64,000 nucleotides of DNA from positions 13,197,766 to 13,261,765 of the forward strand of contig OX155979.1 in the NCBI GenBank assembly GCA_944548615.1, written 5' to 3'. The position numbers and the translations under genes were made by a program. The stretch comes from Micropterix aruncella. Lineage: Eukaryota; Arthropoda; Insecta; Lepidoptera; Micropterigidae. The stretch's first letter is position 1; each line of letters opens with the position of its first letter. Below are positions 9,024-61,891 of the stretch, piece after piece. The notes under the pieces are model-generated. The model did not search any database, was not told where the DNA came from, and was given only the letters and a program-made list of their open reading frames with translations.

Positions 9024-9591
9024 TTAACCCCTCAAGCCCCGATTGGCCGATATCGGCCAAAACACGATGCAGCGTGACGACCCCGTTTTAGTTTTATTTT
9101 AACCCCTTGAGTATGATACGACCAAATCTGGTTCTGAAACAATTATCCGTTGAGTATGATACGACCAGATCTGGTTCCGCGTTTTTTTCACTTCTTTGAC
9201 GTTCTCATATTTATCTAATTGTTTTACAAAATGATATTTCAATATTCTATATTCGAAATTTCAATGCAATCATTGTGCAGTTGTTCTTTTTATGATTGGT
9301 GTAGTAGTTTCGTAGTTATAGTACTTTAAGGTCGATGTCGCCGAAAATCCTGCAAAAGTGACAGATGCATCCATGAAAATACCCATTTACTCCAAGGGTT
9401 AATTTAATTTATTTTAATTTATTATGTTTTATTATGTTAATATATTTTATTTTAATTATGGATACAGTGGTTTGGCATTAATTAATGTTTTGGTGAGACT
9501 GTCATAATTCAATTTTTTTACTAATTTTTACTAAAATTTTTTGGGACATCAACTTGTCAATCGGCTGAGGGGCCGAGGCCTGAAGGGTTAA
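9024..9591 (+). mobile_element. TTAA element family I, carrying a nested family A element
   Basis: Starts TTAACCCCTCAAGCCCC and ends GCCTGAAGGGTTAA. The perfect 18-bp palindrome TTGGCCGATATCGGCCAA lies at bases 20-37. It is interrupted by family A at 9099-9402. An uninterrupted copy is at 37007-37276. Confidence 0.8.
9099..9402 (+). mobile_element. TTAA element family A, copy 1
   Basis: 304 bp. The ends are TTAACCCCTTGAGTA and, inverted, TTAACCCTTGGAGTA. The left end has the palindromes ACCAAATCTGGT (bases 23-34) and ACCAGATCTGGT (66-77). It is inserted at a TTAA of the family I element, which gives a perfect TTAA duplication. Non-coding. Confidence 0.85.
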
Positions 9592-9759
9592 ATTGAAATA
9601 TTAATTGTTTTACAATTAAAAAATAATGGTCGATATTTAAAAAAAATATTATACCACATAAGGTATAATACCAGTTACTCAACTTGACTATACCAAGAGT
9701 AGGGATTCCTACCAACTGGATACCAAAAAAAAAATTATTATTATTATTGTGATATTTAT

Positions 9760-9823
9760 TTATATATATTTATTATGTAATGTTATTTTTAGCACACTGA
9801 AGTTATTCTATTCTATTCTATTC
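9760..9823 (+). repeat. LINE 3' tail with TTCTA repeats
   Basis: Ends AAGTTATTCTATTCTATTC, like the tails at 17440-17465 and 45835-45855. It abuts the donor of exon 12. Confidence 0.6.
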
Positions 9824-9827
9824 TTAC

Positions 9828-9890
9828 CTCTTTCATTGAACGTACGGCTGATATGTATGGATACACAGCACTCGAGTCCAAACCGTATTC
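9828..9890 (-). CDS. Exon 12: 21-codon micro-exon
   Basis: Encodes residues 538-558 (EYGLDSSAVYPYISAVRSMK plus E). The acceptor is a T-rich tract ending TTTAG and the donor is GAG then GTAAGA; both are phase 0. The donor bases run straight into a TTCTA-type retroposon tail. The tyrosine-rich content continues into exon 13. Confidence 0.78.
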
Positions 9891-10039
9891 CTAAAAAAAA
9901 CGAGTTATCCATTTAAAGAAAATAGTTCCAGTTCTTGCGCAGAAACCAGTTTTTCCCTTTCTCTCCTCTTCCTCTCCCAATTTCCTCTCCTCGGGCATTA
10001 TTAGTTTTAAATTCTTCCAGTTGTCTGAATGTTATGCAG

Positions 10040-10190
10040 ACGGTCTGTATATTAAGTAATAATCTTTATTTTCACAATGCGCGCATGTACCACTGAGTTT
10101 AGGTTAGTTGTAAGATATTGCCATCTGGCGTCAGCTCGCCTTTTTGTATAACAATTAAGTGCAAATAAAGGGTTTATTATTATTTTTATT
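10040..10190 (+). repeat. CR1-like LINE 3' end
   Basis: Holds the ACAATGCGCGCATGTACCACTG to GCAAATAAAG segment, also found at 60710-60830 and reversed at 35190-35280. No coding sequence. Confidence 0.65.
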
Positions 10191-10332
10191 AAAATAACTA
10201 TCAGAGTTCGCTAAATGCTATGCCTTCGCCTGGGCAATCTTAAATTAATCTAGAATAAGCTTAAAGATAGAAGCTTTTCTGATCGACCGAACGATTCAAG
10301 CGCAAGTTGGAAACCAATTGTCCCACAAATGA

Positions 10333-10839
10333 TCAACCTTCTGGCGCTCCTGGACGGTCTGCACACCGTGTGACATAAGCCAATCGATTGCGCGCTCTAA
10401 CAGTCGGGGGAGTCTGGAAGCAGTACTGTTTCCTATAGAGCAGGGGTGGTTGCGGACCTTACGGCGACTGCTCTTGAAACAACCATCGGCTACCCGATCC
10501 TGGGTGAACAGCCGGGCAAAGGATGCTGTGGTCGGCGATAGATTCGGTAAACACCGTTTCACCGCTTCGTAAGGGAGAGGACCGCGCAAGCGACCTCGAA
10601 CTCGTAACCAATCGAGAGACTGGAGTAATCTTGTCGCAATTGGAAGTAAGGGCGTGAGTGTAAGCCCGCCGGTTAACACTCCTGGCTATCTTGCGGTTAA
10701 GGCGTTGGCCTCTTGCGGGCATGTGTTGGAACTTGACGGTGGACTGTTTTGTCCAAGTCTTCTGCGCTCACCCCAGGGAGATAGAACGACTAATCGTTAA
10801 AACTTCCTGAGGTGACGGGCTCGCTCGCTGTAGTCCTAG
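10333..10839 (+). mobile_element. GC-rich retroposon family B, 5'-truncated copy
   Basis: Lacks about 120 bp at the start compared with 1635-2238 but has the constant 3' end. Direct repeats TTGTCCCACAAATGA (10318-10332) and TTGTCGCACAAATGA (10840-10854) flank it. Confidence 0.68.
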
Positions 10840-10854
10840 TTGTCGCACAAATGA

Positions 10855-12060: not shown

Positions 12061-12245
12061 AATTCACTTTTGCGCATTTGAGCATGTTATTTGGATGGGT
12101 TTATAAGTTTTTGTGATTATTCCGCTGGTTTATGTTTTAATTTCTTCAAGGCGAAATTTTTAACCTAGAAAAATACAGTTGACAGTTCGCAGTTGACATA
12201 TTGTGGGTCTTTCCCACTGATCATACTGAATATTTGAAGACTTAC

Positions 12246-12412: not shown

Positions 12413-12469
12413 CTGAAACAGTCGTACCATTCAACTATGCATCCTTTTAATTATATTAAACAAGATAAA

Positions 12470-13939: not shown

Positions 13940-14238
13940 CTGAAACGTTAGTAGATGGTAAACGTTAATATCTAAATATATTTAAAGGTTTACAAGTTTA
14001 ATAATTGAAATTTTAAAATGATTGGTTGAAAATGAAGAATTTGAAAATGAAACCTAAAAATTGTGGTTATTATATCCGATAAAATCAGTTAAATCGAAGA
14101 GAATAAAACAGAAGTTTGAAAATCTAATGAAAATAAATTAACCCCTGGAGCCTCAATTGGCCGATATCGGCCACAACACGATTCAGACGTGACGAGAGTT
14201 TTAATTTAATTTGTTTTATTTTATTATGGTTTATTATG

Positions 14239-14764
14239 TTAACCCCTTGAGTATGATACGACCAAATCTGGTTCTGAAACAATTATCCGTTGAGTATGAT
14301 ACGACCAGATCTGGTTCCGCGTTTTTTTCACTTCTTTGACGTTCTCATATCCTACTAATATTATAAACGCGAAAGTTTTTATGTATGTATGGATGTTTGT
14401 TACTCTTTCACGCAAAAACTACTGAATGGATTTTGATGAAACTTTACAATAATATAGCTTACACATCAGAATAACACATAGGCTATAATTTATAATGATA
14501 TATGGTTTTCTATCATCATTATCGCAATTTTCCATCACCACGCGGGTGAAACCGCTGGGTGCAGCTAGTTTATTCATAATTATCTAATTGTTTTACAAAA
14601 TGATATTTCAATATTCTATATTTCAATGCAATCATTGTGCAGTTGTTCTTTTTATGATTGGTGTAGTAGTTTCGTAGTTATAGTACTTTAAGGTCTATGT
14701 CGCCGAAAATCCTGCAAAAGAGACAGATGCATCCATGAAAATACCCATTTACTCCAAGGGTTAA
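14239..14764 (+). mobile_element. TTAA element family A, copy 2, carrying a Helitron
   Basis: Has the same ends and paired palindromes as copy 1. It is split at 14350 by a 219-bp Helitron. Confidence 0.83.
14350..14568 (+). mobile_element. Non-autonomous Helitron with exact empty site
   Basis: Begins TCCTACTAATATTATAAA and ends GCAGCTAG, inserted between A and T with no duplication. The empty site CTCATATTTATTCAT is intact in family A copies at 36 kb. It contains CTACTGAATGGATTTTGATG, common to arthropod Helitrons. Confidence 0.88.
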
Positions 14765-15064
14765 TATGTTGTAATTGAATTATGGGTACAGTGGTTTGCC
14801 AGTAATTAATGTTTTGATGAGACGATGTCAATTCAATTTTTTTACTAATTTTTACTAAAATTTTTTGGGACATCAACTTGTCAATCGGCTGAGGGGCCGA
14901 GGCCTGAAGGGTTAACGAGTATATTATAGCCAATATCTGGAAAAGAGATGCCTTGCTCAAGCAAGAAATTTGAGAAAGTTTATGATATTGTGTATCTTTT
15001 GTGGATTTTTTTCAAAATATTTTGTAGAAATGGTTACGAGTAAAATGTATTATAAATGTGGTAC

Positions 15065-19616: not shown

Positions 19617-19713
19617 ATTCAATGGCAGTGGATATAGAAATAGAGCCGATAATTGAATAAATACAGATAATACAAAAAACGCCGATCGGCGTGCATGGCC
19701 ACCCAGGGGTTAA
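19617..19713 (-). mobile_element. TTAA element end (family O)
   Basis: Reading inward from TTAA at 19710-19713, the perfect palindrome ACGCCGATCGGCGT lies at bases 22-35. The other terminus is not identified. Confidence 0.5.
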
Positions 19714-20560: not shown

Positions 20561-21974
20561 TTAACCCCTCACGTTGCGAGGTAAAAACTCACCTATCACT
20601 TTTGCGCGCGACATATTCGCGCAAAAAATCGACGCGAGTCAACGGCCTTGAGAAAAACGATCATAACTTATAAACCACTAAACGGAATAAAAAAAGATAA
20701 AGAGAAAAATGATCGCATTGAAATTTGACATATAAAACATTATAACCTTATCTCGTAAAACAATTAAGATAATAATGAATAAATATTACAAAATTGGCAA
20801 ACTGAAAAAAACTCGCCTATAAAATCATTTCGATTTTTTTGTAAATACAGTTTTTGTAAATACAGTTATGTTCTTTATTAAATGCTTTACCAAAACGATA
20901 TTTTTTTTTTACTTATTTGCATACAAAAATACGGAAAAAATATTTATTTATTCAGCCAAGAAAAATTTTATTCATTCTCGTAAAAAAAATTTTTTTTAAT
21001 TTTTAATTTGTGACTACTTATGGTATTTTTTTATATGAAATTCTTTCAAAATAACTTTATTACTACATCACTTCTTCTTAGAAATCACACCAGAACTTTG
21101 ACCTTTGTCTGATATTATAGAAAAATCTAAAGTTTTGAGAGTTTCCGCGTCCGAACCTAATAATAAACTTTGAATGCCCATAATATAAAATTCGTTAGAT
21201 TTTTTCAATTATATTGTCTTATCATAGACTTATTATATGTCTAATAACTAATTACTATACTCCAAAGAGTCACATTTCATCGAAAAACTATGGAAAATCG
21301 CACTTTTATCTCTCATAGTAATTATCAAAACAAGTTTCATTTTCGCGAGCCATATTAGAAAAACAACATATAATGTTCAAAATACGCCTAATTATGTGAT
21401 AACTTAGGATGTAAATGAAGCAATACCTATTTTATTAGTAAATTAAAGCGACATTACGTCATGTTTCGCGATATATAGGGATATTTCACAAACATTACAA
21501 AATAAAAACGGCCATTTTTTCGCGAGCCGTGTGTTGTTGCCAAAGTGTTTTCTTCGAAAATTCGTGAAAAACAGCAAATGGATTGTCTAAATTGAATAAT
21601 CCTAATGCCTAAACTACTTAAAAATGGAAATTACTCACTTTTATCCGGTATACACTGCACTTATATCCACAAAACACTTCACAAAACAAACATTTCGCGG
21701 AACTACGCGGCCGCCGCGCGCTGGCCGATCGGCGACTGTCGTCTGACGTTTATTCTGACTTTTTAATTAGCCGATCGATATTATCGCCGCTGGCCGCGGG
21801 ATTAAAGATTATTCGGCCATGTATTTCAACCGTCAGAAAGCATAAAGTACGACGATTCGAATCGTAAATTGCATTTTTCGCAGCGGCGAGCGCGATATCC
21901 AAAATCGGATGTTACGGATTGTAGGCGGCCGCCATACATGTCCCCAAATGGATGTTACGTGCTCAGCGGGTTAA
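20561..21974 (-). mobile_element. TTAA element family F, copy 1 (1.4 kb)
   Basis: Starts TTAACCCCTCACGTTGCG and ends AGCACG-type sequence then GCGGGTTAA on the right in reverse (TTAACCCGCTGAGCACGTAA). From the right end the imperfect palindromes are centred at 28/29 and 71/72 (ATCCGATTTTGGAT). The empty site is visible in the LINE at 12.9 kb. No open frame; the right third is GC-rich. Confidence 0.8.
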
Positions 21975-22111
21975 GAACGTTCTGCCAAATAGAGTGGTGG
22001 ACATGTGGAATAAACTACCAGTTGAAGTGATTAGTGCAATCTCTGTCAATCAATTTAAAAACAGACTCGATTTGTATCTAAAAACTTGTTAATGTTGTTT
22101 ACACTACATTG

Positions 22112-23033
22112 TTAACCCTTTATAGTTTCATGTGACATTTCTGTAACAAACTACTAATATCCCCCTAAAATTCCCCTAAATAAGGCACTAAATTCATTTA
22201 GTTCATTTGAATCCGCTAGCACTACCGTACCCTACCACTTAGTATCGAGTAAAAATCATAGATAGCGTAACTAAGCAACTTATGTGAGTTTAAATGTTGC
22301 GCGTTGATGAAAGTGATAAATTAGAACTAAGGCAGGTGTTGAATGACTGATAAAAAAGAATAAAAAGTGTTTACAATTGTGTGGTTTTCGTGGAAACCTG
22401 TAGGTAAGAATATAATTTTATCCATTCTAAATTTCGAAGCAAAAGATGGCAAGTTAGGATGTTCTAACATTTACTGGAACGGACTATGGCAAATTCTCGG
22501 TTATTATACCGAAGAGTAAGGAAGGCAAAATATCTCAACGGCAAACAAATGTCTTCAACAGAATTTAGACTTGAGATAGGCGAGACCTTATGCGAGCTTG
22601 GCCTGAAGCCTAACATCAATAGTCGAAGGTCTTTATAAGACGAAATTCAAGCCAAAAAACATAAATGCTATGCGCAATATGTTCCTCCATTGGCAGTAAG
22701 GCAGGACCAGGTCGGTTATTGGGCGATTTGGGTTAAAAAAGGATACGTTGCAAGATTCCCAAGTGCACTGGCGTTTCACAAACAATTTGCGAAAAATGCA
22801 GTGTAGCATTATGCTATAATAAACAAAATAATTGTTTTAAATTTTTCCATATAACAAAATTGTTTTTTTATACGTTCAACTCAATGTTACAGTAATGTCA
22901 CATTCCCTTAAATGTCAAATGATTAATAATAAATATTTTTGAATTTCTGAGAAATACGTGTTTTTTTATTTGCCTAAACCTCTCATTATCTACATTATTT
23001 TTTGTTTGAAGATCTTGGGCTACAAAGGGTTAA
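22112..23033 (+). mobile_element. piggyBac-like element with transposase remnant
   Basis: 922 bp, TTAA both sides, with terminal repeats CCCTTTATAG and CCCTTTGTAG. The subterminal inverted repeat TGTGACA/TGTAACA is at bases 20-26 and 31-37, axis 28/29. It contains the C-terminal transposase piece described separately; the N-terminal and catalytic parts are deleted. Confidence 0.88.
22500..22860 (+). pseudogene. piggyBac transposase C-terminus with cysteine-rich domain
   Basis: Frames encode KYLNGKQMSSTEFRLEIGE, one stop, then YVPPLAVRQDQVGYWAIW. After a frameshift comes CKIPKCTGVSQTICEKC, ALCYNKQNNCF and FFH, the cysteine-rich DNA-binding domain of piggyBac transposases. The catalytic DDD core is absent, so it cannot be active. 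Confidence 0.9.
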
Positions 23034-23146
23034 TATTGTTTAACTTTACAAGATCTGATCTGGACGTATCAGCAAAGCTGCCTGTCCAGAATAAATAATA
23101 ATAGTAAATCTGCTGTCGCTGATTTGAATTTGTGAACTGCTCGTAC

Positions 23147-23285
23147 CTTGATGGGTTCCTTAGATCGTCTGTCTGTTGGTGTCGGTGATGATGAGGGTGC
23201 AGATCTCTTGGCGACAGGGGAAAATGCAGGAGTGTTGGAAGAACGCCGCTTTTCTGGCAATTTTGGAGGCGGAGGTGGCGGTAAC
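23147..23285 (-). CDS. Exon 6: Pro/Ser-rich linker
   Basis: Supplies the last base of codon 228 and residues 229-274, beginning LPPPPPPKLPEKRRSS and ending KEPIK. The acceptor is TTTGTTCAG and the donor is AAG then GTACGA. It is low complexity and probably disordered. A LINE 3' tail ends about 40 bp downstream of its donor. Confidence 0.8.
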
Positions 23286-23439
23286 CTGAACAAAGAAATA
23301 ACAATTATAAATACAAACGATGCTTCCATAGCACTGACCATCACTGGTGGCATAGTGGTAAGATTGCCTGATCTTGCATTGTAAGATTGCCTGATCTTGC
23401 ATCTATCAAACAACTGGAGGACAAACAATTAAAAAAAAA

Positions 23440-23560
23440 CATTAAGGAGATGCTGATAGGCCACCCTTTCTATAATCTGACCGAATTCGAGGGCCATGAC
23501 TTTGCAAATATTGTACCAATTTGAATGATATTATTATATATGTACTTTTAGTATCTAAAT
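23440..23560 (+). repeat. LINE 3' terminal scrap
   Basis: Encodes IKEMLIGHPFYNLTEF..DFANIVPI then a stop, like LINE ORF ends. Nothing else recognisable. Confidence 0.5.
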
Positions 23561-24067
23561 GTAAGATTTAGCTTTAGTTTGATCATTTAATAATTTACTT
23601 ACTACTATGGATGTTACTATGTACAGTTTTTAGTACGTATATATTCGATTTATTGACTATTTCAATTGTTAGCCTTCTGCTTTGATTATTCGACTTTTTA
23701 ACTGAGTATTTTAATTATTGTGTGTTTAGTAGGTAGCTAGGATAATAATGTATGTTAAGTAAAGATTAAAGTAGTAATGAGACTTACTGCTTAAAATACA
23801 AATATTTTGACACATCGAAGAGCGGTTTTTAGCCGCCAATTGGACACGACGTAAATGTAATGTAAGGTTCCAGGTTTGATTCGCAGCTGTCCCTATTTGC
23901 CACTGGGATAAAATTGACAGAATTGCATTACAATTCTGTCGATTGAATGCATTACCTAGGCACACACATGTTACAAGCACACATTATATAGACACTTCAT
24001 AGTAAGAGAGGTTGTAAGAGATTGTCTTGTGATAATAAACCCGCCCATTGCAAAATTTCAAAATAAA

Positions 24068-24378
24068 GGGCTCTCTAGACGATCAAGCATGCCAGTCAAG
24101 CATCGCATCGCGGACTGGAAGGGATCGTAAACTGCAGGAAACATGCTTTTTTTTTTAAATAATATTTAGCGAAAACGCCTATGTTTGTAGTTATATACCA
24201 GGGAGTCACGTCAATCATCAATCAATTACGTCTAATTAACGTGACTTCCTGGTATAAACTATAAAACTAGGCGGTTTTGGTAAATATTAAAAAAAAAATT
24301 GCATAATCCTGCGGTTTACGATCCCCTCCCAGCCCGCGACGCGATGCTTGACAAGCATGCTTGATCGTCTAGAGCCCC
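24068..24378. mobile_element. Foldback MITE, about 311 bp
   Basis: The ends are GGGCTCTCTAGACGATCAAG and the inverse of GGGGCTCTAGACGATCAAG. The two halves are complementary almost throughout, including CAGGGAGTCACGT against ACGTGACTTCCTG in the centre. No coding; superfamily undetermined. Confidence 0.75.
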
Positions 24379-24458
24379 TAACAAGAACAATAAATTAAAA
24401 AAATAAAAACACGACTGCCGGTACAAAAGTTTCACTTTGTATGTATAAGTGAACTACA

Positions 24459-24780
24459 GTAGAACTCCAATAATCCTAACCGATTGGGCCCGTACCCCAA
24501 TTCAAGTACGAAGTACGAAGATAATTAATGAAATTCAAATCAGATCTACGATCTACAATTCGTACATCTACGATCTTCGAATTATTAAATTTCAGTATAA
24601 GATACCCGAATTCTGTATAAGATAATTTTTCATGGTTTCCCATTGTTTTTCTATATTTCCTGGTGGTTTTTCTGTTTTCGTACATTTCTCCCATACTTTG
24701 ACAGCTAAAAACTTATAGTTGCGAAATTCGGGAGATCTTCGCGTTTTGACAGCCGGTGACGCGCCGATCCTCTCACGTGA
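24459..24780 (+). mobile_element. Possible pogo/Tigger-type end
   Basis: Begins CAGTAGAACTCCAATAATCC after TA, resembling Tigger termini. No matching right end is found. Confidence 0.35.
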
Positions 24781-24799
24781 TTGGTCGAGGCCGAAGTTT

Positions 24800-27430
24800 T
24801 GTATTTTTTTGTTGATTTAACGGCTTTAACCTTTCAGCCGCCGGCCCTCCAGAAAGCTATTGTACGCCCCGCGCCAGCCTGTTTTGAAAAGAAGGGCGAG
24901 CGCCGCGCTGTGTTTATACTAAGTATTTTCCATATTACCACCATATCGATCAAAACCACTAAATATCTATTAATGAATTGCCTAACTTATTTACTTGTTA
25001 ACCTATTTATCAAAATTTCACAGTGATAGCCAAGGTCGTTTGATCAGAATAATGATTTATTCAAACGAGTGTCATTTTCTCCCGAACGCAAATAAAACAC
25101 CCACAATTAATTGTTTGAGCATATTTTTTCACTTTTTTTTAAATTATCAGAAAGTTAAATAAATTCTCTTTAGAATAAAAATAAAATCGTATAACATTAT
25201 AGTACTAATAAGTAGTGTAATATTAATTTCAATTTGTCAATATTTTTGGTTTTACTTTTTCCGGCGGAGTTTACGTGACTCAAAACATAGGGTGTTTGTA
25301 AACGATCGATATATTATTTTAGTTAGACTCTCTGTAATGCCTCTGAAATCTTGAAACTAAACATAACGGCTACCAAGACAAAGTTTTACTAGGTAATCTA
25401 CCTAGTAAAATCCCTTTTTATCCCCAACTATATACCCATTTATTTCGTATTTTTAATACCAATTTCGTTGAATAGCTAGGTAGCTACAAAACACTACCCA
25501 GAAACAGTTTTCTCAAAGTAATTAGTAAGGGTGTGTTATGATTATCCATAAAAATATAATTTTCGAAAAATTTCATCAATATAATTATAGCTATTTTTGA
25601 AAAAAAAAATACCTAGGTATTTTCCAATAAAATTAAAGTATAGTAAAAGTATAAGTGTAATTATTATTAATAATATTAATAAGGGAATATAGTATATAAT
25701 ATATAAATTATTAAAAAATTTGTACCTAGGTACTTCCTGGGTAGGTACTTTTTTACTTATAGCTTGCAACTATCCCACATTTTGTGTAAAACCATCATTC
25801 GTAAATAAATAAAACAGGTGTAAAAGAATCACACCGTTCATATTTTAGCGCTTAATTTATTAGTAGCCATGCTTCTAGTAACTGACTATAATATACCTGC
25901 AAAAGGCGATTCAAAAGGCCACTCCTTTTTTTAGGTTACTCAAGCAAGTCGAATCGTAATGTCTAACATCTGTTTGTCACTTCCCACGCGACCGACCGAT
26001 ACAATGACGAAGCCCTATGAAGGTCGAAGCATCGATATCCCTGCGTTGGGACGAAGGGTCTGTACTCTGTTTCCAAAACTTTAATCTGCAACAACTCTTA
26101 CTTCGTCAATCATTTCTTTTAAATTTGTCCTTTTTAATTAGACACCGTGTCACATTGGACTTGCGTTAACGTATTAGAATCATTGTCAACGTTTTAAGAA
26201 ATATATTTTCATTAGGGTTACTTATTGTACTCATCTATATTTACGAACACTAGCGTATTATTAGTCTACTGATTATTATTTTTCATCATTGTAAACAAAA
26301 TATTTTACCAGTAATTATTGTCGTGATATTTTGAGATTTAGTTATTTCATAATTTTATATTAATTCTTATCTTGATTAAGTAGATAACAAAAATACAACT
26401 TACTGTTACCGTTTTAGATTTATTTTACTATACGAATATAAGACAGGTACTCAATGACGATTGTTTGATAGTGATAGTTAAGTACCAATAATAAATATAA
26501 AGTTTACATTCAAAAATGTCAACATATCTTACAATTATAACTCACCAGGTTGACTTTCTGAGATGACACGAAATATTCGGCAACTCAGAAATAATGTCCA
26601 TATAAAATTTAGCTTAAAAGTCTGAAAGAGATCAAGAGCAACAAATAACATCGTGATTTATGTCATATAAAATTTATTAAAGAAAACATTTATTCCCAAA
26701 TAATTCCACTGACCGCTGGCAAATGAAAGTCCTAGAAATTGCATGGATACTATAAACATTACTTTTTAACTTATGGTTAGTAGTTTTAGAATTATAAATA
26801 AAGTAATTTAAAATATTCATATTATAATTTAAAACTATGATCTCAAGTATATTATCGAGTTCATTATTTGATTTGGTGTAAAAACAATTATTTATTCGTT
26901 ATTGTCCGTAACAAAAACAATAATATGTACAAAAATGTTGTATTTACTATTTATGGCTTTAATTGAACTTCATTTGTTTCTCAGTACAATGACAGAAGGT
27001 AGGTCTACTTTTGTAACTCGATTTTGACGAACTTTTACATAACCAATTATTTTTAAATTTTACATACATAAAAAGTTCCGATGACAATACAATATTCTAT
27101 AGGTAAAATAATAAAATACATGTCGGGTGTTTGAATACCTACAACATTTTAAGGGGGTTATTATTTATGAAACATTGACAAGTAGGACTGCTAGTATTAG
27201 GATTATAGAATTATAAAGCACCATTGATAATGAAAATATAAAAATTACCCACAAAAAGCAGTAACTTATACTTACATATTATATTTAAAGCGACCTGATT
27301 GTAGACGAAAATACACAATACCTTCTAACGAATAGAATACATTCGTAACCAAAATTCTTTTATACCCTTCCGAGACTCATTGACATGGTTATCTAGGCGA
27401 CTATTTTGACTATGGTTATCCAGGCGACTT
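24800..27430. other. Mostly unique, AT-rich intron
   Basis: No gene or repeat that I can name. There are short AT-rich runs at 25550-25720 and a tandem TATGGTTATC..GGCGAC near 27385-27430. The open frames are low complexity. Confidence 0.6.
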
Positions 27431-29440: not shown

Positions 29441-31186
29441 ATGAGGGGTGCTTGCGGGGCGATTAAACGCGAATATTATATATCCCATCCGGACACTATG
29501 ACATTTAATGGCGAAACTTTCAAAGGAGACATAGAAATTTCTAAAGCCTTCGCAGAGTATTTTAAAACGGTATACAGCAGTACTGAGCCCCTGCTTAATG
29601 TAGATGCGCTCATTTGTGATACCGACAGTAATGGACCTGTCTTAGACATCCCACAGGTGACTTCGAATGAGATAAATCGCGCATTTTCGAAAATGAGTTT
29701 CAAAAAATCACTGGGTCCTGATAACATTCCACCTTTCCTAGTTAAACACTGCGCGATGGCCCTACAAGGACCTTTATCACATATTTTCAATATTAGCCTA
29801 AAATCACATTGCTTTCCGCTCAAATGGCAGGTTACTCGTATTACACCCGTTCATAAAAGTGGTCCTAAGAACGTAATCGAGAACTACCGGCCCGTCAGCG
29901 TTGGGTGTACATTTGCAAAATTATTCGAGTCTATTTTACACGAACGTATTTACTCATTCGCAGACACCTGGTTGTCGGAAAGCCAGCATGGATTCAGAAA
30001 GAAAAGGTCAACATGCACCAATTTATTGTCATTGACAGAGTATGCCACTACCGCCCTGGACCGTGGCCTCCAAGTAGATGTTATATACTTGGACATGGCC
30101 AAGGCATTTGACAGGGTTAACAGAGACATCCTCTTACAGAAGCTTTTTGACTTCGGTTTCTCTAAACATCTTGTGAAGTTCTTCGCAAGCTATTTCAAAA
30201 ACAGGAGACAATTAGTCAGCTTTGGTTCCTCCGAGTCAGCCCTCTTTAAGGTTCATTCGGGGGTGCCGCAAGGTGCGAATCTCTCTACGATTTTGATTTT
30301 CATTAATGATTTACCTAAATTTGTAAAATATAGTCACTGCTCACTATTCGCTGATGACGTGAAAATTTTTCATCAAATAACAGATGCTCGAGAAGCGGAA
30401 ATATTACAGCAAGATATAGATGCTCTTTCAAGATGGGGCTCTGTCAATGACATGGAATTCAACACTAACAAGTGCTCTGTTTTAACCATCACTAAGAAGA
30501 AAACACCTTGCTTTTTCCCATACACAATAAACGGGTCAATTTTAAAAAGGTCAACCGAGGTGAGGGACCTGGGAATTACATTTGATACACAGTTGAACTT
30601 CCGTGCACACATTACAAATATTTGCAATCGTGCTAGCAAAATGGTCGGTTTTGTTATTCGCATATGCAAACAGTTTAATAATATTCATGTAATGTTTCTA
30701 CTATATAATTGTTTAGTCCGTAGCATACTTGAATATAACTCGGTCATCTGGTGTACAAGTGAAAACAAATACATTCAGATGGTAGAGCGTATTCAAAGAA
30801 AATTTTTAAGATATATTTATTACAGAAAATACAATATTTATCCATACTTATTTCCGTCAGATTTTGTGCTAGGAATGGTAGGATACAACAGTCTTGAAAC
30901 TCGTCGATATATTTCACTAATTATATTTGCATATAAACTTATTCAAGGAACGATTTATTTGCCAGAGATACTATGTAACTTTGAATTGTACGTACCGGTA
31001 AATTACACAGCGAGGAGATCGCATCTATTGTATAATGTGCCGTACCACCGTACAAATATTTTTGTAGACAGGCCAGTGGGAAGGGTTATAGCTCTTCTTA
31101 ATTCCTTACCCACTGAAATAGATATCTTTTGTACATCCCTTTGGCAGCTAAAAAGGCATCTCCCTGCTATCTCATGTTTATCATAA
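29441..31186 (+). CDS. Non-LTR retrotransposon reverse transcriptase, open 581 codons
   Basis: RT motifs occur in order: SLGPDNIPPFLVK (residues about 91-103), NYRPVSVGCTFAKLFE (148-163), QHGFRKKRST, VIYLDMAKAFDRVN (first catalytic Asp), GVPQGANLSTILIFINDLP, SLFADDVKIF (FADD) and VRDLGITFDTQLNF. The post-RT region ends in WQLKRHLPAI. No endonuclease precedes it, so the element is 5'-truncated, and the GVPQG motif seems two residues short of the usual length. The 3' tail of AATAAATAAATAA type runs to about 31375. Probably dead but recent. Confidence 0.9.
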   Translation: MRGACGAIKREYYISHPDTMTFNGETFKGDIEISKAFAEYFKTVYSSTEPLLNVDALICDTDSNGPVLDIPQVTSNEINRAFSKMSFKKSLGPDNIPPFLVKHCAMALQGPLSHIFNISLKSHCFPLKWQVTRITPVHKSGPKNVIENYRPVSVGCTFAKLFESILHERIYSFADTWLSESQHGFRKKRSTCTNLLSLTEYATTALDRGLQVDVIYLDMAKAFDRVNRDILLQKLFDFGFSKHLVKFFASYFKNRRQLVSFGSSESALFKVHSGVPQGANLSTILIFINDLPKFVKYSHCSLFADDVKIFHQITDAREAEILQQDIDALSRWGSVNDMEFNTNKCSVLTITKKKTPCFFPYTINGSILKRSTEVRDLGITFDTQLNFRAHITNICNRASKMVGFVIRICKQFNNIHVMFLLYNCLVRSILEYNSVIWCTSENKYIQMVERIQRKFLRYIYYRKYNIYPYLFPSDFVLGMVGYNSLETRRYISLIIFAYKLIQGTIYLPEILCNFELYVPVNYTARRSHLLYNVPYHRTNIFVDRPVGRVIALLNSLPTEIDIFCTSLWQLKRHLPAISCLS

Positions 31187-31984: not shown

Positions 31985-32110
31985 CTATGACCCTCGGGAG
32001 GATCATACGATTCTAACAATACGACACACTTCTACATCGGTTGAAGCGTTTAAAAGTTATGGTAGAATAAAGAAACAGAAAACATACATAGAGGAATCCT
32101 GAACACATAA
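31985..32110 (+). repeat. Target repeat P, copy 1
   Basis: Holds ATTCTAACAATACGACACAC to AAAGTTATGGTAGAATAAAG, which recurs around the insertions at 33148-34790 and at 57582-57628. It is useful as an empty-site reference. Confidence 0.5.
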
Positions 32111-34055: not shown

Positions 34056-34736
34056 TTAACCCCTCGAGCGCTGACGTTTGAATTGTAGTTTCTCTTAGAG
34101 AACGCGAAGAAGAAGAAGATTACATCACAACAAAAATATAGCGTTTCAGGAAAACGACGATTACTCCGAAACTACTATACGGATCACATAAAGAAGACCT
34201 ATTTTATGTTCCTGTTGAAATTTGCTATTAGATACGTGTAACGTCGTTTTGTAAAGCAATAAGCATTATTCAGAATTATCTGTCAAAGTTGTGGTACAGA
34301 AAAAACTGCCTTGTCCAACATTTCTATGTTTTTTCTGGAAATAAATCACCCTATGCAAGAAATTGTGAATACTTTTATAATAATTATAATATGCTTCATT
34401 CAACCTATGACTTCGTTTTACTTATACCCGTACAAAAATAAAAAAATATTCGGTGTTGAAAATCAACATGAATATTGAAGTTTTTGGTTTGGTTCGGTTC
34501 AATCATTAAAACTAAAAAATGGCGACTGTATGAAAAATAATGAACCAACTAGTTAACGACAGAGAATCTTCTCCTCTTTTCGCACATACCACATGCCGTA
34601 TGATTTATGTGAGGTATCAAGGGTAAATAATTGGAAAACATCGGCGCCGATCTCGGCTGGGACAGATGTCCCCTTTGCGGCTCTACGGTAATTTCAATTG
34701 TGGGACAATTGTCCCGTTTGCCGCTCAAGGGATTAA
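34056..34736 (-). mobile_element. TTAA element family J
   Basis: 681 bp. The ends are TTAACCCCTCGAGCG and, inverted, TTAATCCCTTGAGCGG. From the right end, the perfect palindrome GGGACAATTGTCCC lies at bases 22-35 and GGGACATCTGTCCC at 65-78. It is inserted in repeat P; the site without insertion is at 32030. Non-coding. Confidence 0.8.
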
Positions 34737-36040: not shown

Positions 36041-36353
36041 TTAACCCGTTGAGTATGAGTCAACCAAATCTGGTTGCGAAACAATTATCCGTTGAGTACG
36101 AGTCGACCAAATCTGGTCGCGCGTTTTTTTCACTTCTTTGACGTTCTCATATTTATTCATAATTATCTAATTGTTTCACAAAATGATATTTCAATATTCT
36201 ATATTCGAAATTTCAATGCAATCATTGTGCAGTTGTTCTTTTTATGATTGGTGTAGTAGTTTCGTAGTTATAGTACTTTAAGTCGATGTCGCCGAAAATC
36301 CTGCAAAAGAGACAGATGCATCCATGAAAATACCCATTTACTCCAAGGGTTAA
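36041..36353 (+). mobile_element. TTAA element family A, copy 3
   Basis: Intact 313 bp. The first palindrome is AACCAAATCTGGTT (bases 22-35); the second is CGACCAAATCTGGTCG (64-79). The flanking bases differ between the two blocks but stay self-complementary. It serves as the empty-site reference for the Helitron at 14350. Confidence 0.83.
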
Positions 36354-37006: not shown

Positions 37007-37276
37007 TTAGCCCCTCAGGCCCCGATTGGCCGATATCGGCCACAACACGATTAAGCGTGACGGCCCCGTTTTAGTTTTATTTTAATTTAATTTGTTTTAT
37101 TTTATTATGTTTTATTATGTTAATTCGTTTCATTTTAATTATGGGTACAGTGGTTTGGCAGTAATTAATGTTTTGGTGAGACAGTATCGTAATTCATTTT
37201 TTTTACTAATTTTTACTAAATTTTTTTGGGACTGTAACTTGTCAATCGGCTGAGGGGCCGAGGCCTAAAGGGTTAA
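37007..37276 (+). mobile_element. TTAA element family I without nested element
   Basis: 270 bp; the left TTAA has become TTAG. It has the palindrome GGCCGATATCGGCC. It retains both internal TTAA sites used by family A in the other copies, so it is the empty-site reference. Confidence 0.8.
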
Positions 37277-45887: not shown

Positions 45888-46470
45888 AATTTTTTAACAC
45901 GCTTTTATTAGGTCGACCCGTATGTAACTATGTAATGGAATCTAAGGTAACTAATTTAACCATCTTTTAGGATCGTAGCGTCATGAAAATTGGCAGCTGA
46001 ATGTAGTTCTGATGACAACACAATAATATGGTACTGTCGAACTGATCTGATGCAAAGTCGGAAGATATGAACTGGAACATCATGATGGAACATCGTATCA
46101 TAGCTGTGTTTGAACTTGTTAGAAAAGTCTCGGAATGAACTTTGACCACGATTAGGTTTCAAGGTTCGATGATGAAGCCGGAAGATAGGCACTGGCATTC
46201 CATGATGGAATATCGTATCATAGCCGTGTTTGGACTTGTTAGAAAGGTCTTGTAATGAACTTTGACCACGATTAAGTTTCAAAGTCTGATGATGAAGCCG
46301 GAAGACAGGAACTGGCATTCCATGATGGAATATCGTATCATAGTTGTGTTTGCACTTGTGAGAAAGGTCATGTAATGGACTTTGAACACGATCAGGTTTC
46401 AAGGTTATTGAGTGTAAATAGTGTAAATATTGACATAGGTGCCTGTATAAAGCGTGTTTTTAATGTTTTT
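45888..46470 (-). mobile_element. Terminal-repeat element L with 120-bp tandem repeats
   Basis: The ends are TTTTTAACACGCTTTTATT and, inverted, TTAAAAACACGCTTTATAC. Inside, 46040-46405 has about three 120-bp units that keep one reading frame of 148 codons on the minus strand (repeating DLSNKSKHGYDTIFHHGMPV). See findings. Confidence 0.7.
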
Positions 46471-46852: not shown

Positions 46853-48265
46853 TTAACCCCTCACGTTGCGAGGTAAAAACTCACCTATCACTTTTGCGCG
46901 CGACACATTCGCGCAAAAAATCGACGCGAGTCAACGGCCTTGAGAAAAACGATCATAACTTTTAAACCACTAAACGGATTTAAAAAAGATAAAGAGAAAA
47001 ATGATCGCATTGAAATTTGACATATAAAACATTATAACCTTATCTCGTAAAACAATTAAGATAATAATGAATAAATATTACAAAATTGGCAAACTGAAAA
47101 AACTCGCCTATAAAATCATTTCGATTTTTTTGTCACAAAATACGTAAAATATGCAAAAATTGTAAATACAGTTATGTTCTTTATTAAATACTTTACCAAA
47201 ACGATATTTTTTTTTTACCTATTTGCATACAAAAATATTTATTTATTCAGCCAAGAAAAATTTTATGTATTCTCGTAAAAAAAAAATTTTTTAATTTTTA
47301 ATTTGTGACTACTTATGGTATTTTTTTATATGAAATTCTTTCAAAATAACTTTATTACTACATCACACTTCTTAGAAATCACACCAGAACTTTGAGCTTT
47401 GTCTGATATTATAGAAAAATCTAAAGTTTAGAGAGTTTCCGCGTCCGAACTTAATAATAAACTTTGAATGCCCATAATATAAAATTCGTAAGATTTTTTC
47501 TATTATATTGTCTTAGCATAGACTTATTATATGTCTAATAACTAATTACTATACTCCAAAGAGTCACATTTCATCGAAAAACTATGGAAAATCGCACTTT
47601 ATTCTCTCATAGTAATTATCAAAAGAAGTTTCTTTGCGCGATTCAATTTACAAAACAAGATATAATTTTCAAAATACTCCTAATTATGTGATAACTTAGG
47701 ATGTAAATGAAACAATACTTATTTTGTTAGTAAATTAAAGCGATATTACGTCATATTTCGCAATATATCAGGATATTTCATAAACATTACAAAATAATAA
47801 CAACCATTTTTTCGCGAGCCGTTTGTTGTTGCCAAAGTGTTTTCTTTGAAAATTCGTGAAAAACAGCAAATGGACTCTTTCAATTGAGTAATAATTATGC
47901 CTAAACTACTTAAAAATGGAAATTACTCACTTTTATCCCGTAAACACTGCACTTATATCCACAAAACACTGTACAAAACAAACATTTCGCGGAACTACGC
48001 GGCCGCCGCGCGCTGGCCGATCGAGACTGCCGTCTGACGTTTATGCTGACTTTTTAATTAGCCGATCGATATTATCGCCGCTGGCCGCCGGATTAAAGAT
48101 TATTCGGCCATGTATTTCAGCCGTCAGAAAGCATAAAGTACGACGATTCGAATCGTAAATTGCATTTTTCGCAGCGGCGAGCGCGATGTCCCGTAGCGGA
48201 CGTTACGCATTGTAGGCGGCCGCCATACATGTCCCCAAATGGATGTTACGTGCTGTGCGGGTTAA
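46853..48265 (-). mobile_element. TTAA element family F, copy 2
   Basis: 1413 bp, collinear with 20561-21974. From the right end: TTAACCCGCACAGCACGTAA, with dyads at 28/29 and 71/72 (GTCCGCTACGGGAC). It shares its right TTAA with the next element. Confidence 0.8.
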
Positions 48266-48595
48266 CCCTTCAGCTACTTAATGACCAAATTTGGTTGCAC
48301 ATCAGAACACCGTTGACTACGTAACGACCAATATTGGCGGCTTGCTCCCGGAGCGCACAGTAATATTATTTTCTAATTCGAACGCATCCTAAAGTCCATA
48401 CCAAATATCTCATTATTACCATAGATACATAGACGGCCGCTAGAATAATTTCGGGCGTCATTTCGCGGATTGTCAAACATCATCATTTTTTTTCTCTCGA
48501 GAAATCATAAAAAAAAATATTGGTTTTTATGAGCTTATATCTAAATATTTTTGTATGTAAATAATCAAAACGAAATATCACCTCTGATAGAGAAG
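48262..48595 (+). mobile_element. TTAA element family GH, left part
   Basis: TTAACCCTTCAGCTAC, then palindromes ACCAAATTTGGT at 23-34 and CCAATATTGG at 67-76. Collinear with 5965-6500 and then truncated. Confidence 0.75.
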
Positions 48596-55997: not shown

Positions 55998-56489
55998 TTT
56001 TTGATTTCCCGAAAAAAAAAATTATGATGTTTGACAATGGAAATTATTCTAGCTGCCGTCTATGTATCTATGGTCATAATAAGATATTTGGTATGGATTT
56101 TAGCATGCGTTCGTATTAGAAAATAATATTACTGTGCGCTCCGGGAGCAAGCCGCCAATATTGGTCGTTACGTAGTCAACGGTGTTCTGATGTGAAACCA
56201 AATTTGGTCGTTAAGTAGCCGAAGGGTTAATGTAATTTAGCCTAATAGAATGTTTACTTGTTATAGTTATGCTAATGCTTTTACATATTTATGCTAATTT
56301 ATACTAATAGAGTTTTTAATTTCTCCGTTATATTTATATTATATATTATTTTAATTATTTTAATTAGCTCACCTGGGTAAGTGCTTAGTAGTATAGGTTT
56401 CAATGTTTTCTTTAGTAAGTATTTACTGATTGAGTTGACTAATTTTATAGATTAATTTTGGAACAATAAAAATAAAATACAAACGGAGC

Positions 56490-57115: not shown

Positions 57116-57119
57116 GTTC

Positions 57120-57628: not shown

Positions 57629-58256
57629 GTTGTCGAGTACAGCGGGCGAGCCCGTCACCTCAGGAAGTTTTAACGATTAGTCGGTCTATCTCCCTGGAGT
57701 GAGCGCAGAAGACTTGGACAAAACGGTACACCGTCTAGCTCCGCCACAAACCCGTAAGAGGCCAACGCCTTAACCGCGAGATAGCCAGGAGTGTTACCTG
57801 GCGGGCTTACACTCACGCCCTTACTTCCAATTGCGATCAGATTACTCCAGTCTCTCGATTGGTTACGAGTTCGAGGTCGCTTGCGCGGTGTAAACCGAAT
57901 CTATCGCGGACCACAGCGTCCTTTGCCCGGCTGTTCACCCAGGATCGGGTAGCCGATGGTCATTTCAAGAGCAGTCGCCGTAAGGTCTGCAACCACCCCC
58001 GCTCGATAGGAAACAGTACTGTTTCCAGACTCCCCCGACTGTTAGCCAGAGTGCGCGATCGATTGGCTTATGCCGCACGGTGCGCAGACCGTCCAGGAGC
58101 GCCAGAAGGTTGAATCCCAGGGGAAACTAACCATAAGGCCAGAGTCCTACCCAGGCTCGCACTTCATGCGTGGAGGCCGTCGGATAGGTGTTGACCCGTG
58201 AGTGTGACCAACCCTGAACAGAATGGGTCTTCGTGGCCAACTCAGCAAGGGCCCCT
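57629..58256 (-). mobile_element. GC-rich retroposon family B, full reverse copy
   Basis: Flanked by AACAATACCACACA at about 57615-57628 and 58257-58270. Same ends as 1635-2238 in reverse. Its target is repeat P. Confidence 0.72.
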
Positions 58257-58327
58257 TAACAATACCACACACTTCAAAATTATTGAATTTGTCCATTTGC
58301 TTCAGAACAGTCTCCTCGAGTTTGATA

Positions 58328-58710
58328 CAGGGCCGGCCCGTCCATATAGGCAAACTAGGCAATTGCCTAGGGCGCTCGTATTTTGGGGGGCAGCGCGGCG
58401 AGGAGATCTGGTAGCCTGGTATCAGAGCAATAACATTAATCATGTTTTTGGATTTCTCTATAACGTTCATGAGATGCAGAATAAAGAGATTCATGAGAGT
58501 CATGGAGAGTCTAAGGATTTTGATGCAACTGAGTTATGCAGCGAATTGCAATCTATTGCAAGAAGAGTACCAAATAACACTGCACCACAAGAACTAAATT
58601 ATATTTGTGAAAATGGGTTACTAGATATCTTACCTAATTTAGTAACTGCAATAAGGGTGTTGCTGACACTTCCCGTGTCTGTGGCCAGTGGTGACTGCAG
58701 TTTTTCTAAA
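58328..58710 (+). pseudogene. hAT transposase scrap
   Basis: Begins CAGGGCCGGCCCGTCC, a hAT-type terminus. The frame encodes ELCSELQSIARRVPNNTAPQ and DILPNLVTAIRVLLTLPVSV then ASGDCSFSKL, the C-terminal dimerisation region of hAT transposases. Internally deleted and cut by a family A piece. Confidence 0.85.
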
Positions 58711-58862
58711 TTAACCCTTGGAGTAAATAGGTATTTTCATGGATGCATATGTCTCTTTTGCAGGATTTGCGGCGACATCGACTTAAAGTACTATAACTAC
58801 GAAACTACTACACCGGGCCCGACTTCGGTCGGTGAATTCCATGGCAGCTCCGTTTGTATTTT
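58711..58862 (-). mobile_element. Family A end joined to a family C 3' terminus
   Basis: 58711-58811 is the non-palindromic end of family A (TTAACCCTTGGAGTAAATAG). 58812-58862 is the LINE terminus GTGAATTCCATGGCAGCTCC. Confidence 0.65.
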
Positions 58863-59126
58863 ATTTACTATTTCTACTATTACTTGGTCAGTGATTTCAT
58901 TCATCCACCTCACACGTATCCGTATCTTCGCCTGCGGGAATCCCTTTCATCGTTTCTGTCAAGTTCTTAATATTTACGGAATCGTCTCCTTCAAGCCAAT
59001 CCCATCATCTTTGAAGAGTTTCTACTTTCGCTTTATCCTAGGCTTACGCACACCAATAAATGACGTGTTTCACATTTACCGCCTTCAGTGCTTTATTCAT
59101 GTTTTTGTGTTGTATGCCTTTATTAG

Positions 59127-59360
59127 TTAACCCTTCAAGCCCCGCGATTTCGATATCGAAGTCAAATGAACGCATCCAGGAAAAGTGATTTGATTGGGTT
59201 TTTCGTGTCATTCCGTATGCAGTTGTATTTTATTTAAATGCATGATGATATTTGTATCATCGTGCATTTAAATGAAATACAACTGCATTCGGAATGATAC
59301 GAAAAACCAAATCAAATCACTTTTCCTAGACGCGTTCAGGTGACTTCGATATCGAAGTCT
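59127..59360 (+). mobile_element. TTAA-start foldback element (family K)
   Basis: TTAACCCTTCAAGCCCC with palindrome TTCGATATCGAA at bases 23-34. The interior is a near-perfect hairpin with arms of roughly 95 bp around TATTTGTA. The second TTAA end is not identified. Confidence 0.6.
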
Positions 59361-59399
59361 TCGATCTTACAGCAAAATCATCAATCTTGGTATTTGCAA

Positions 59400-59910
59400 G
59401 ATTTAAAAATCTTATCTCTATCTCGCAAGATCTCGGTATTTTGCGAGATCTCACAGATTTCAGAATATTTATTTTTTTTATTTATAATTATTTTGATTAT
59501 TTCTATTGCAACTTGGAAGTTAATTCGTAAGGGCAAAGTAATTATTTTTTTTTACATTGCCCGACTATATTTACCGTGCTGATTCCGAATCTGCAATAAT
59601 CTTTATTCGGTCTCAATAAATAAGCGAGATATAGGCATTCAAAGAAGCGGCAAACCCATACATTTCGGTAGGTTTAGTTTTGTTTTAAATAATACACACC
59701 CTTGTGTCGGTAGGTTAGGTTGATTTTTTTCTAAACAATCTTAAAAACTGAGTTTGAAAAATGTTTTCATTTTTTTTTCTATGTAAATTCGTTTTTTTTC
59801 TCGAAATTTTACGCGTCCGAAGCCCTTTCCTTTATATTTCTATTTCTTTTTTCGATTTTTGAGAAAGGTTCCTATACTGCATATATTCCTATAAAACAAA
59901 TTAGGGAACG
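59400..59910. other. AT-rich intron, nothing recognised
   Basis: Short repeats of CTTATCTCTATCTCGCAAGA type only. No coding sequence. Confidence 0.45.
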
Positions 59911-60097
59911 CATTATATCTTGAAAAAACCGCGGCGTCCATTTCGTTTTTTCGGACCTGTCAAAAATTCGAATTTGGAACTTTTTGGCGAGGGTTGCCCG
60001 TCATTCGTCATAGCCGGTTGCCGCCAATGAAACACCAAAACAATGGCGCCGCGGCGTTTCCGCCAATCGAAAACCAATTTCACGCATCGCCCCGTAC

Positions 60098-60280
60098 CTC
60101 GATGGAGACGCATTCCCTTATTTTCACATGCAGCTCCACTCCGATATCGAGAACGCCGCCGCCGGCGACGTTCTGCAGCACGGGCATCTTGTAGCCGCCG
60201 CCAGCGCCGCACAGGCGGCACGAGCTGAATATCTCATAGTAGGTCTGCTTGGCGTTCTTGTTGCTGCGGAAGCGGTCCAT
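60098..60280 (-). CDS. Exon 1: start codon and first half of ZAD
   Basis: Encodes residues 1-61. The ATG at 60278-60280 has A at -3 and G at +4, a good initiation context; the open frame upstream lacks another ATG. The first zinc-binding pair is CRLC (C21, C24). The exon ends in phase 0 at GAG followed by the donor GTACGG. It pairs with exon 2 to complete the four-cysteine ZAD. The region just upstream is GC-rich but shows no clear TATA box. Confidence 0.88.
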
Positions 60281-60440
60281 CGTCGATGCTATACTGTCGC
60301 GCGGGCGGCACACAGCATAATAGACGGTCAACAATCAGTAAACGCGCAAAACGTAAATAATAAAACAACACGACGCACGACGCGCGTCGGCGATCGAGCG
60401 AGCCAAAAATGATAAAACTATAGACTACAGAGCGGAGGCA
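60281..60440 (-). promoter_or_regulatory. Probable 5' flank of the zinc-finger gene
   Basis: Immediately upstream of the ATG, CpG-containing and free of recognised repeats to about 60420. Placed by position only; no TATA or initiator can be asserted. Confidence 0.35.
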
Positions 60441-60699
60441 GGGATGGGCAAAAAGTATCTAATACTTTCAGAGTATGGCTTCTTTATAAAAATTTATAAC
60501 GCATAACGCAGAAGCCTTAAGGCTTCTTTATAAAACGTAATATAAATTAAGTATTTTTGTACTCGATACTTTTCACGTGAACGCGCGTTTAATGTGAACG
60601 CGCTAACAAAAAACATTTAGATGTAAACGATATATCCAATGTGAGCCCCCTTGAGACGATTCTTAGTTTTAAACACCTTTATTGGTCTGTATTTTATGC

Positions 60700-60835
60700 A
60701 GGCGAAAGCAATATTCTTTATTTCCACAATGCGCGCATGTACCACTGTGATAAGGTTAGTTGTAAGACATTGCCATGTGGCGATAAGCTCGCCTTTTGAT
60801 AATATAATTAAGTGCAAATAAAGAGTATATTGTTA
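60700..60835 (+). repeat. CR1-like LINE 3' end
   Basis: Same segment as 10040-10190 (ACAATGCGCGCATGTACCAC to GTGCAAATAAAG). Confidence 0.65.
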
Positions 60836-60839
60836 TTAT

Positions 60840-61800
60840 GACCATTTCCAAAGTAAAGTATGATCATGCGTCTGTCTTCTTTGTGTAAATGTCACGGAAA
60901 ATATGAAGAATCGTGAACCCAGCGTTTGTAAAGTGTTTAAAAAGGGTAAGTGAAAAAAAATATAGAATGCCTTTAAAAATATACTTTATTAATTCAAAGT
61001 AATTACAAAATCACAAACTCATTAGTTATTTTACACATCCCAATCTTCAGACCGCAGTGGCTGTAAAAGCGGTACTAAAGAGGAAATATGTAAGAATGCA
61101 TTTTAAAATGCACATTTAATGTGCATTTTTAATCTAAAACAATTAGAGAGGAGTGAATAAAAATTGTCGTATGTACTAAGACATGTGTAAATCCGCCATT
61201 AGTATTTGACGAGCCAATATCTCGCATGTTTATAGAGATAGACAAAAGATTTTAATCGGTTTAGATTTTTATCAGATTCGGAATCAGTGTGAGGAATGTA
61301 GTGTATTGGCATTAAAAAAGTCAGTGTTGAAGAGTTTTCCTAAACTGCATAAATACCAGTGTTTTCTACGTGTGGGTGAAGTAATTAATCAAAAAATAAA
61401 TGTTTAGATGGGGTATAATAGACGTGTTGCAAAGACGTGTTAAACGCTCGAAAGCCAACCTTCACGGGCATTAAACTGCGCCACAACTTTTTGGCCGATT
61501 TTGTGATTCGATATCGTTTTTTCATGAATTCACTTTTAGGGTAAAAGTGGAATAGTTGGCCCAGGAGGATAGACGATCCATACTTCAAAATGAACACTTG
61601 CAAACATGATACAATCGCACCTAATACTTATAAGCAAAGTACGACCTCCTGCCCCCTAGTGTTTGAGCGGCAACCGCGAAGATTGGACTTGTCGCCTGTG
61701 TCAAAATAACGTTCGACGACGGCTTCTGGGGTAACTAACCCTCTTTTACCCTATTACGTAGTAATTAATCTTGTTAATCATGTATATTATAGATTTATAT
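60840..61800. other. Upstream intergenic, nothing recognised
   Basis: Only a TTTTAAAATGCACATTTAAT mini-palindrome near 61100-61130. Open frames are short and unconvincing. Confidence 0.4.
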
Positions 61801-61804
61801 AACA

Positions 61805-61891
61805 TATATAGGGGGCGGCCGAAACGGTTACGCGCGGACCTGTCAAACGACGCAAAATGCCTACAGGCACTGTCGGCGTCCGACGGGTTAA
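61805..61891 (-). mobile_element. TTAA element end (family N)
   Basis: Reading inward from TTAA at 61888-61891: TTAACCCGTCGGACGCC, with palindrome TGCCTGTAGGCA at bases 23-34. The other end was not found. Confidence 0.5.

Follow-up and report, generated by a model that had tools for sequence, protein, structure and literature searches.

Transposable elements inserted at TTAA in the lepidopteran Micropterix aruncella carry, at their left ends, palindromes of unlike sequence centered at one fixed position: counted from the first T of TTAA, the axis of symmetry lies between bases 28 and 29 (axis 28/29, or 28.5). The elements were analyzed in a window of 64,000 nucleotides (contig OX155979.1, positions 13,197,766 to 13,261,765), where they are represented by families A, GH, F, J, I, K, N, and O and by a piggyBac remnant that starts at position 22112 (the 22112 element). 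Both the constant position and the interpretation of the palindrome as a putative transposase dimer site are well supported, and comparison of the sequences with characterized relatives indicates that these are very probably non-autonomous piggyBac-type elements in which the left-end palindrome is the predicted dimer site.

Position of the left-end palindrome

Each TTAA of the window, whichever strand it is read from, was examined for perfect palindromes (arms of 6 bp or longer) at offsets 8–99. The 29 TTAACCC ends have nine such palindromes, seven at axis 28/29 and two at 71/72. A second measure sums the six innermost pairs of one left end from each of A, GH, F, J, I, K, N, O, and the 22112 element. 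At axis 28.5, 46 of the 54 pairs are formed, in agreement with the family-specific palindrome that a preliminary description of the window had placed there; the runner-up among 120 axes (15 to 74.5) is 71.5 with 24, and in 5000 shuffles the highest score at any axis between 20 and 59.5 was 29. The score is biased because the families were picked by the preliminary description for their dyads, while the 29-end scan was not so picked. The subset of A, F, J, I, and the 22112 element forms 23 of 30 pairs at 28.5 against a shuffle maximum of 21. Chance as the cause of the positional peak was rejected on the basis of the window scan, the 29-end count, and the comparison of the nine-family score with shuffles.

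All six innermost pairs are formed at 28/29 in GH, I, J, K, and O, and five in A. N also forms five, although its true tip is uncertain (a copy in L007 ends 12 bp short, with its own TTAA) and its membership in the 28/29 set, asserted earlier, is doubtful. Only 0–2 of six pairs are formed at each of the right ends examined, those of A, GH, F, J, and I and that of the 22112 element, and none of these six has the palindrome at 28/29; the earlier statement that only one end of each element has it fails for K.

Families A/GH, I, J, K, and O were searched throughout the genome (1.08 Gb). In the free-spacing patterns, TTAA, TTAAC, or TTAACCC and the palindrome were fixed and the 4–30 or 4–34 bases between them left free; axes were counted by eye in 100 listed matches per family, which are the first 100 in contig order and no random draw. 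The I pattern has 4718 matches (reversed-pattern control 0) with axis 28.5 in 95 of the 100 listed, and the O pattern has 211 (control 0) with 90. The corresponding figures are 900 (control 67) and 63 for K, and 621 (control 4) and 59 for J. The A/GH pattern, with 8405 matches (control 0), had its spacing fixed and is uninformative on this point. The earlier view that the palindromes differ while their position is constant is borne out among the listed genome matches of I, O, K, and J, most of which lie at 28.5; it does not extend to other repeats with axes at 21.5–29.5 or to a 150-kb sample in which no peak appears, both considered below. Matches to each of the five families searched number in the hundreds or thousands, and these families, earlier described as local, are spread over the genome.

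The geometry is already known for two elements. In the piggyBac structure (Trichoplusia ni, LE35/RE63), a dimer of the cysteine-rich domain (CRD) occupies a palindrome at bp 17–33, centered at about bp 25. In piggyBat (Myotis lucifugus, LE44/LE88), the palindrome P1LE spans bp 19–30, core motifs are found at bp 11, 55, and 99, spaced 44 bp apart, and the right end lacks such a palindrome (PMC11707139). With 4 added for TTAA, a conversion of our own, the axis falls at base 29 in piggyBac and at 28.5 (bases 23–34) in piggyBat. The left ends in the window share with piggyBat a palindrome at bp 19–30 (imperfect in F and the 22112 element, and of uncertain tip in N), a preceding core motif, and an inward repeat of the unit; the six right ends examined likewise have no palindrome at 28/29, but K has it at both ends. 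The left ends differ from piggyBat in (i) period, 43 bp versus 44, (ii) number of units, two, and only in A, GH, F, and J, versus three, and (iii) the palindrome sequences, as judged without letter-by-letter comparison. With piggyBac they share a palindrome at about the position of its CRD dimer, but the piggyBac axis lies half a base further in and its repeat is also found, displaced, on the right end, whereas the six right ends examined here lack it at 28/29 and K has it at both ends.

A 2026 preprint describes piggyBat as a tetramer with an inner dimer on a second palindrome (PMC13405395), and subterminal inverted repeats in piggyBac-like elements (PMC12324416) as well as zinc-finger diversity of the CRD (PMC8086355) are already known. 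The inner inverted repeats of MER75, MER85, and Looper vary between elements, as do the palindromes here, but the available text states no fixed position. Coral CMITEs (Acropora) are families of TTAA miniature inverted-repeat transposable elements (MITEs) with a common interior and different ends; they are ~100 bp long, and palindromes are unmentioned in the available text. The literature searched, itself available in part, yielded no earlier report of a fixed position over unlike palindromes in one genome, of 43-bp tandem sites, or of a natural element with two left ends such as K, which is no proof of absence.

Predicted dimer site and rival explanations

The dimer-site reading is supported because the position is that of the piggyBac and piggyBat structures, the dyads persist with unlike sequences, the changes between I and K are both-sided, and the outer arms agree between the tandem sites of A, GH, F, and J. 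Families I and K both begin CCYTCAAGCCCCG, with 17 of their first 18 bases identical, and their palindromes have a common center, CGATATCG; the five outer pairs differ, and all five are changed on both sides. A second instance of the tip-proximal unit lies exactly 43 bp further in from the first in A, GH, F, and J and matches it at 28/31 positions in A, 21–22/31 in GH, 24/31 in J, and 17–19/29 in F. Between the first (P1) and second (P2) palindromes, compared over six copies, the outer three bases per side agree in 5–6 of six and the inner six bases in 2–6 of six. Part of the left end is missing from the J copy in L041, where the second palindrome now lies at 28.5.

In the model that we infer for protein binding, DNA bending, the second dimer, and the identity of the acting transposase, the left-end palindrome (bases 23–34, axis 28/29) would be bound by the two cysteine-rich domains of a transposase dimer, bending the DNA. 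The tip distance, set by the transposase core, would stay constant, and the recognized arms would vary between families. Where a second core-plus-palindrome unit is present (A, GH, F, and J), it is probably occupied by another dimer with an architectural role, comparable to the piggyBat tetramer with its 44-bp spacing. The right end mostly has a tip motif only.

A number of observations weigh against this reading. All 1028 TTAA ends of the window together have 110 palindromes of the kind scanned for, of which 10 lie at axis 28 and no more than five at any other, the mean being 1.2 per offset; this plain TTAA peak is not decisive by itself because the control motifs AATT and TATA likewise have their top counts at offset 28 (seven and five matches, mixed AT-rich palindromes, small numbers), the decisive peak being that at TTAACCC. 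Two of the dyads are weak: F forms only its outer three pairs (TCC/GGA), as its earlier description as imperfect (TCC..GGA) had it, and the 22112 element forms three of six (6/9 in another count). The palindrome is present at both ends of K. Moreover, the K palindrome in the comparison with I was composed from genome matches and the window; the full K 18-mer also occurs in the inverted copy in the window (GACTTCGATATCGAAGTC), and the window's own K left end has four of five pairs changed on both sides relative to I, with one T-G mismatch.

Other points of this kind come from outside the core families and from the genome. In the K search, 23 of the 100 listed matches lie at axis 21.5, all from one other repeat, and the remaining J-search matches include, besides inner site copies, other repeats at 26.5 and 29.5. 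The 43-bp unit is found in none of I, K, N, O, and the 22112 element. The 150-kb sample (15 contigs) contains 19 TTAACCC ends, two of them supplied by a single A copy. No exact palindrome is centered at 28 in any of the 19, and of the 809 palindromes counted over every TTAA end of the sample, four lie at 28; the lack of a peak is ascribed to the sample's having too few elements to reveal one. No transposase matched to the palindromes of these families was found in partial lists of ends and transposases.

A role of the palindromes as hairpins or cruciforms, of DNA or RNA, instead of as protein dimer sites is unlikely. The perfect 14–18 bp palindromes of I, J, O, and K and the long fold-back of K are compatible with such structures, which a PGBD5 study discusses for subterminal repeats (PMC12324416). 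However, the differences between P1 and P2 are mostly central and spare the arms, F retains outer pairs only, and hairpin formation would need neither a fixed tip distance nor a 43-bp period.

Common descent alone would have the position inherited from one ancestral end with no selection on symmetry. A homologous segment near the right end of A, GH, F, and J (mostly 60–390 bp from it, at similar distances, with 65–88% identity) and the common tip of I and K agree with such descent. Yet the left-end palindromes are unlike despite that homology (ACCAAATYTGGT in A/GH, TCC..GGA in F, GGGACA..TGTCCC in J) and nonetheless symmetric, and the both-sided changes between I and K likewise speak against it; descent as the whole explanation is very improbable.

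A host DNA-binding dimer, and not the transposase, could also read the palindrome, as the failure to match a transposase in the partial lists would allow, but the position equals that of the CRD site in two solved piggyBac-family complexes, and a host factor is very improbable. Least probable is an assignment to Kolobok, a superfamily that uses TTAA target sites: TTAA duplications and the absence of a transposase matched to any MITE family would fit it, but the CCC tips, the CRD remnant inside one element, the piggyBac geometry, and the 116 piggyBac transposase matches in the genome (no search aimed at Kolobok was made) all point away from it.

Anatomy and insertion sites of the families

Family A is represented by a full copy of 313 bp (36041..36353, plus strand; left end 36041, right end 36353 without a palindrome at 28/29) that has P1 at 36063–36074 (ACCAAATCTGGT) and P2 at 36106–36117, 43 bp apart. 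Another copy (9099..9402, plus) lies at a TTAA within a family I copy and corresponds to the empty site 37082–37085, and one with an internal insert (14239..14764, plus) lies at another TTAA of a second I copy (empty site 37120–37123). These I copies span 9024..9591 (plus; palindrome 9043–9060, TTGGCCGATATCGGCCAA) and 14138..14915 (plus). A occupies two different TTAAs in them, and the third I copy (37007..37276, plus, left TTAA reading TTAG), which is without A, has both sites empty with one TTAA each. Family I is ~270 bp long, with full copies in L025–L027, L029, and L030 and a deletion-bearing copy in L028. In L030, A stands back to back with the right end of I on a single common TTAA (1766–1769). 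Five A copies with an identical 84-base end sequence occur in L001–L005, within the first 100 kb of contig C1, perhaps as a segmental duplication.

GH measures 854 bp in one copy (5965..6818, plus; left end 5965, right end 6818), with P1 at 5987–5998 (ACCAAATTTGGT) and the second unit 43 bp inward. Further GH left ends are located at 48262..48511 (plus) and 55998..56230 (minus), the former on a TTAA common to the left end of an F copy, so that GH and F stand back to back on 48262–48265. Family F is 1414 bp long (20561..21974, minus; left end 21974, right end 20561), and its left-end sites are 21941–21952 (TCCATTTGGGGA) and, 43 bp inward, 21898–21909. The second F copy (46853..48265, minus; left end 48265) is 93% identical.

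The J copy of the window is 681 bp long (34056..34736, minus; left end 34736, right end 34056), and three genome copies with a located right end measure 607, 669, and 677 bp. P1 (34703–34714, within GGGACAATTGTCCC) lies 43 bp from P2 (34660–34671, within GGGACATCTGTCCC; forward strand GGGACAGATGTCCC). Its left end is TTAATCCC in the window and TTAACCC in most listed genome copies. J sits inside a dispersed repeat, other copies of which (31986–32085, L013, L016, L017, and L018) have one TTAA, the empty site in the window being 32041..32044. Insertion of A and J, the two families tested, is TTAA-precise with a single TTAA in empty sites, a piggyBac-type trait. TTAACCC is found at both ends of A, F, I, and the 22112 element, and one GH right end reads TTAACTC; CCC-type terminal bases are characteristic of the piggyBac superfamily.

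J copies were rejected as autonomous elements: the 12 copies examined have no piggyBac match at E 1e-3, and a six-frame Pfam scan of L038 is empty. A 629-codon open stretch in L041 exceeds the length of the J copy at that place and was not recovered as a closed frame. Two other repeats are listed in the J search: TTAACCCTTTAAGGACC.TGGGACATGTGTCCC, the palindrome of which is centered at 26.5 (G000:C2:36684255, C3:5638382, and others), and TTAACACTGGAGCGCACG..., with its axis at 29.5.

Family K (59127..59359, plus; left end 59127) has its palindrome at 59149–59160 (TTCGATATCGAA) within a fold-back inverted repeat (59146–59359). The far tip is missing in this copy and present in genome copies of ~240–260 bp. 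By eye, 30 of the 63 listed K matches at axis 28.5 form 15 plus/minus pairs ~240–260 bp apart, such as C1:15423146/C1:15423397, and because of this pairing the copies concerned are taken to have two left-type ends; the other 33 have no exact partner among the matches listed. The repeat at axis 21.5 in this search resembles TTAACCAGCCTATTTATCGATATCGAT, the axis being counted from its own TTAA (G000:C1:15755912 and 22 more listed matches).

Family O is present as a left end (19625..19713, minus) with a palindrome at 19679–19692 (ACGCCGATCGGCGT) and as a second copy (1268–1353) without the TTAA tip, and family N (61781..61891, minus) has its palindrome at 61858–61869 (TGCCTGTAGGCA). Elsewhere in the window are three tandem copies of a 120-bp unit (46055–46414), a reverse-transcriptase frame (29441–31186), and a 310-codon frame (58198–59130), the middle of which is reminiscent of the hAT dimerization region. 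Among the 120 relatives listed for the reverse-transcriptase frame, the few that carry a name are proteins of insects.

Transposases and the palindrome as a possible specificity module

The 22112 element (22112..23033, plus, 922 bp; left end with TGTGACATTTCTGTAACA at 22131–22148) had been described as transposase-bearing and proves to be a broken remnant, retaining only C-terminal transposase pieces that are frameshifted and lie in two frames, with a putative cysteine-rich domain at 22746–22856. The assignment is numerically weak (zf-Tnp_2 E 0.005, below the cut-off; a tblastn piece at E 0.48), and the pieces are collinear. A six-frame Pfam scan of 22100–27000 is empty, and no PDB match to the pieces has an E value under 0.6. 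At 22885–22902, ~140 bp from the right end, stands an inverted relative of the left-end palindrome, on the basis of which the right end, like that of piggyBac, may have its site in a displaced position. In the examined copies of the other families no transposase was seen, and viral contigs searched with a piggyBac protein gave no match.

In the genome, a PF13843 search scored 116 of 2326 candidates as matches, 111 of them without a stop in the matched stretch; their open frames fall into several size classes, including those near 595, 683, and 858 codons. Many piggyBac transposases with open frames are present, and none was matched to a family in the partial lists compared. Among the listed MITE ends, 0 of 31 J, 0 of 42 O, and 0 of 17 K ends lie within 10 kb of a compared transposase. 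The comparison covered 80 of 100 listed J matches (some of them other repeats), 84 of 100 O matches, and 51 of 100 K matches, the last with one taken per close pair and other-repeat matches omitted, against 42 of the 116 transposases by start coordinate; both lists are partial, and transposase partners may exist.

Upstream sequence of open transposase frames was inspected in two 700-bp pieces, L043 and L044. L043 has a candidate left end, TTAACAC, in which 7/8 outer-arm pairs are formed at axis 29.0. No other axis from 20 to 64.5 scores as high, and this dyad score is reached by 3 of 3086 background TTAA ends. The palindrome is of yet another sequence, and its axis is that of piggyBac. This case is suggestive only, because five TTAAs were tried, the measure was chosen after the sequence had been viewed, and the TTAA is only a candidate element end. 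The L044 piece has no clear end.

The preliminary description regarded the palindromes as dimer sites that diversified along with transposase specificity. Position, dyads, and both-sided changes argue for the first part; a radiation of orthogonal piggyBac-like systems is plausible rather than established, and orthogonal specificities are likely, if unproven. More tentatively, and with somewhat less than even confidence, one transposition geometry may have been kept in this genome while the sequence of the dimer site was exchanged. At least six unlike palindromes (A/GH, F, J, I, K, and O) would then stand on the same geometry, in places on the same tip (I and K), with both tandem sites exchanged together (A, F, and J). 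Specificity would be an exchangeable module, the transposase core staying constant and the cysteine-rich domains that read the site varying, and K would be a natural element with two left ends, comparable to engineered LE/LE transposons.

The fixed axis provides a simple rule by which the left end and its probable docking sequence can be read from DNA alone, even in MITEs without a transposase. Swapped palindromes on one geometry, together with many open-frame transposases, would allow the sequence choice of the cysteine-rich domain to be read out, and the same families could show whether specificity changes without touching the catalytic core.

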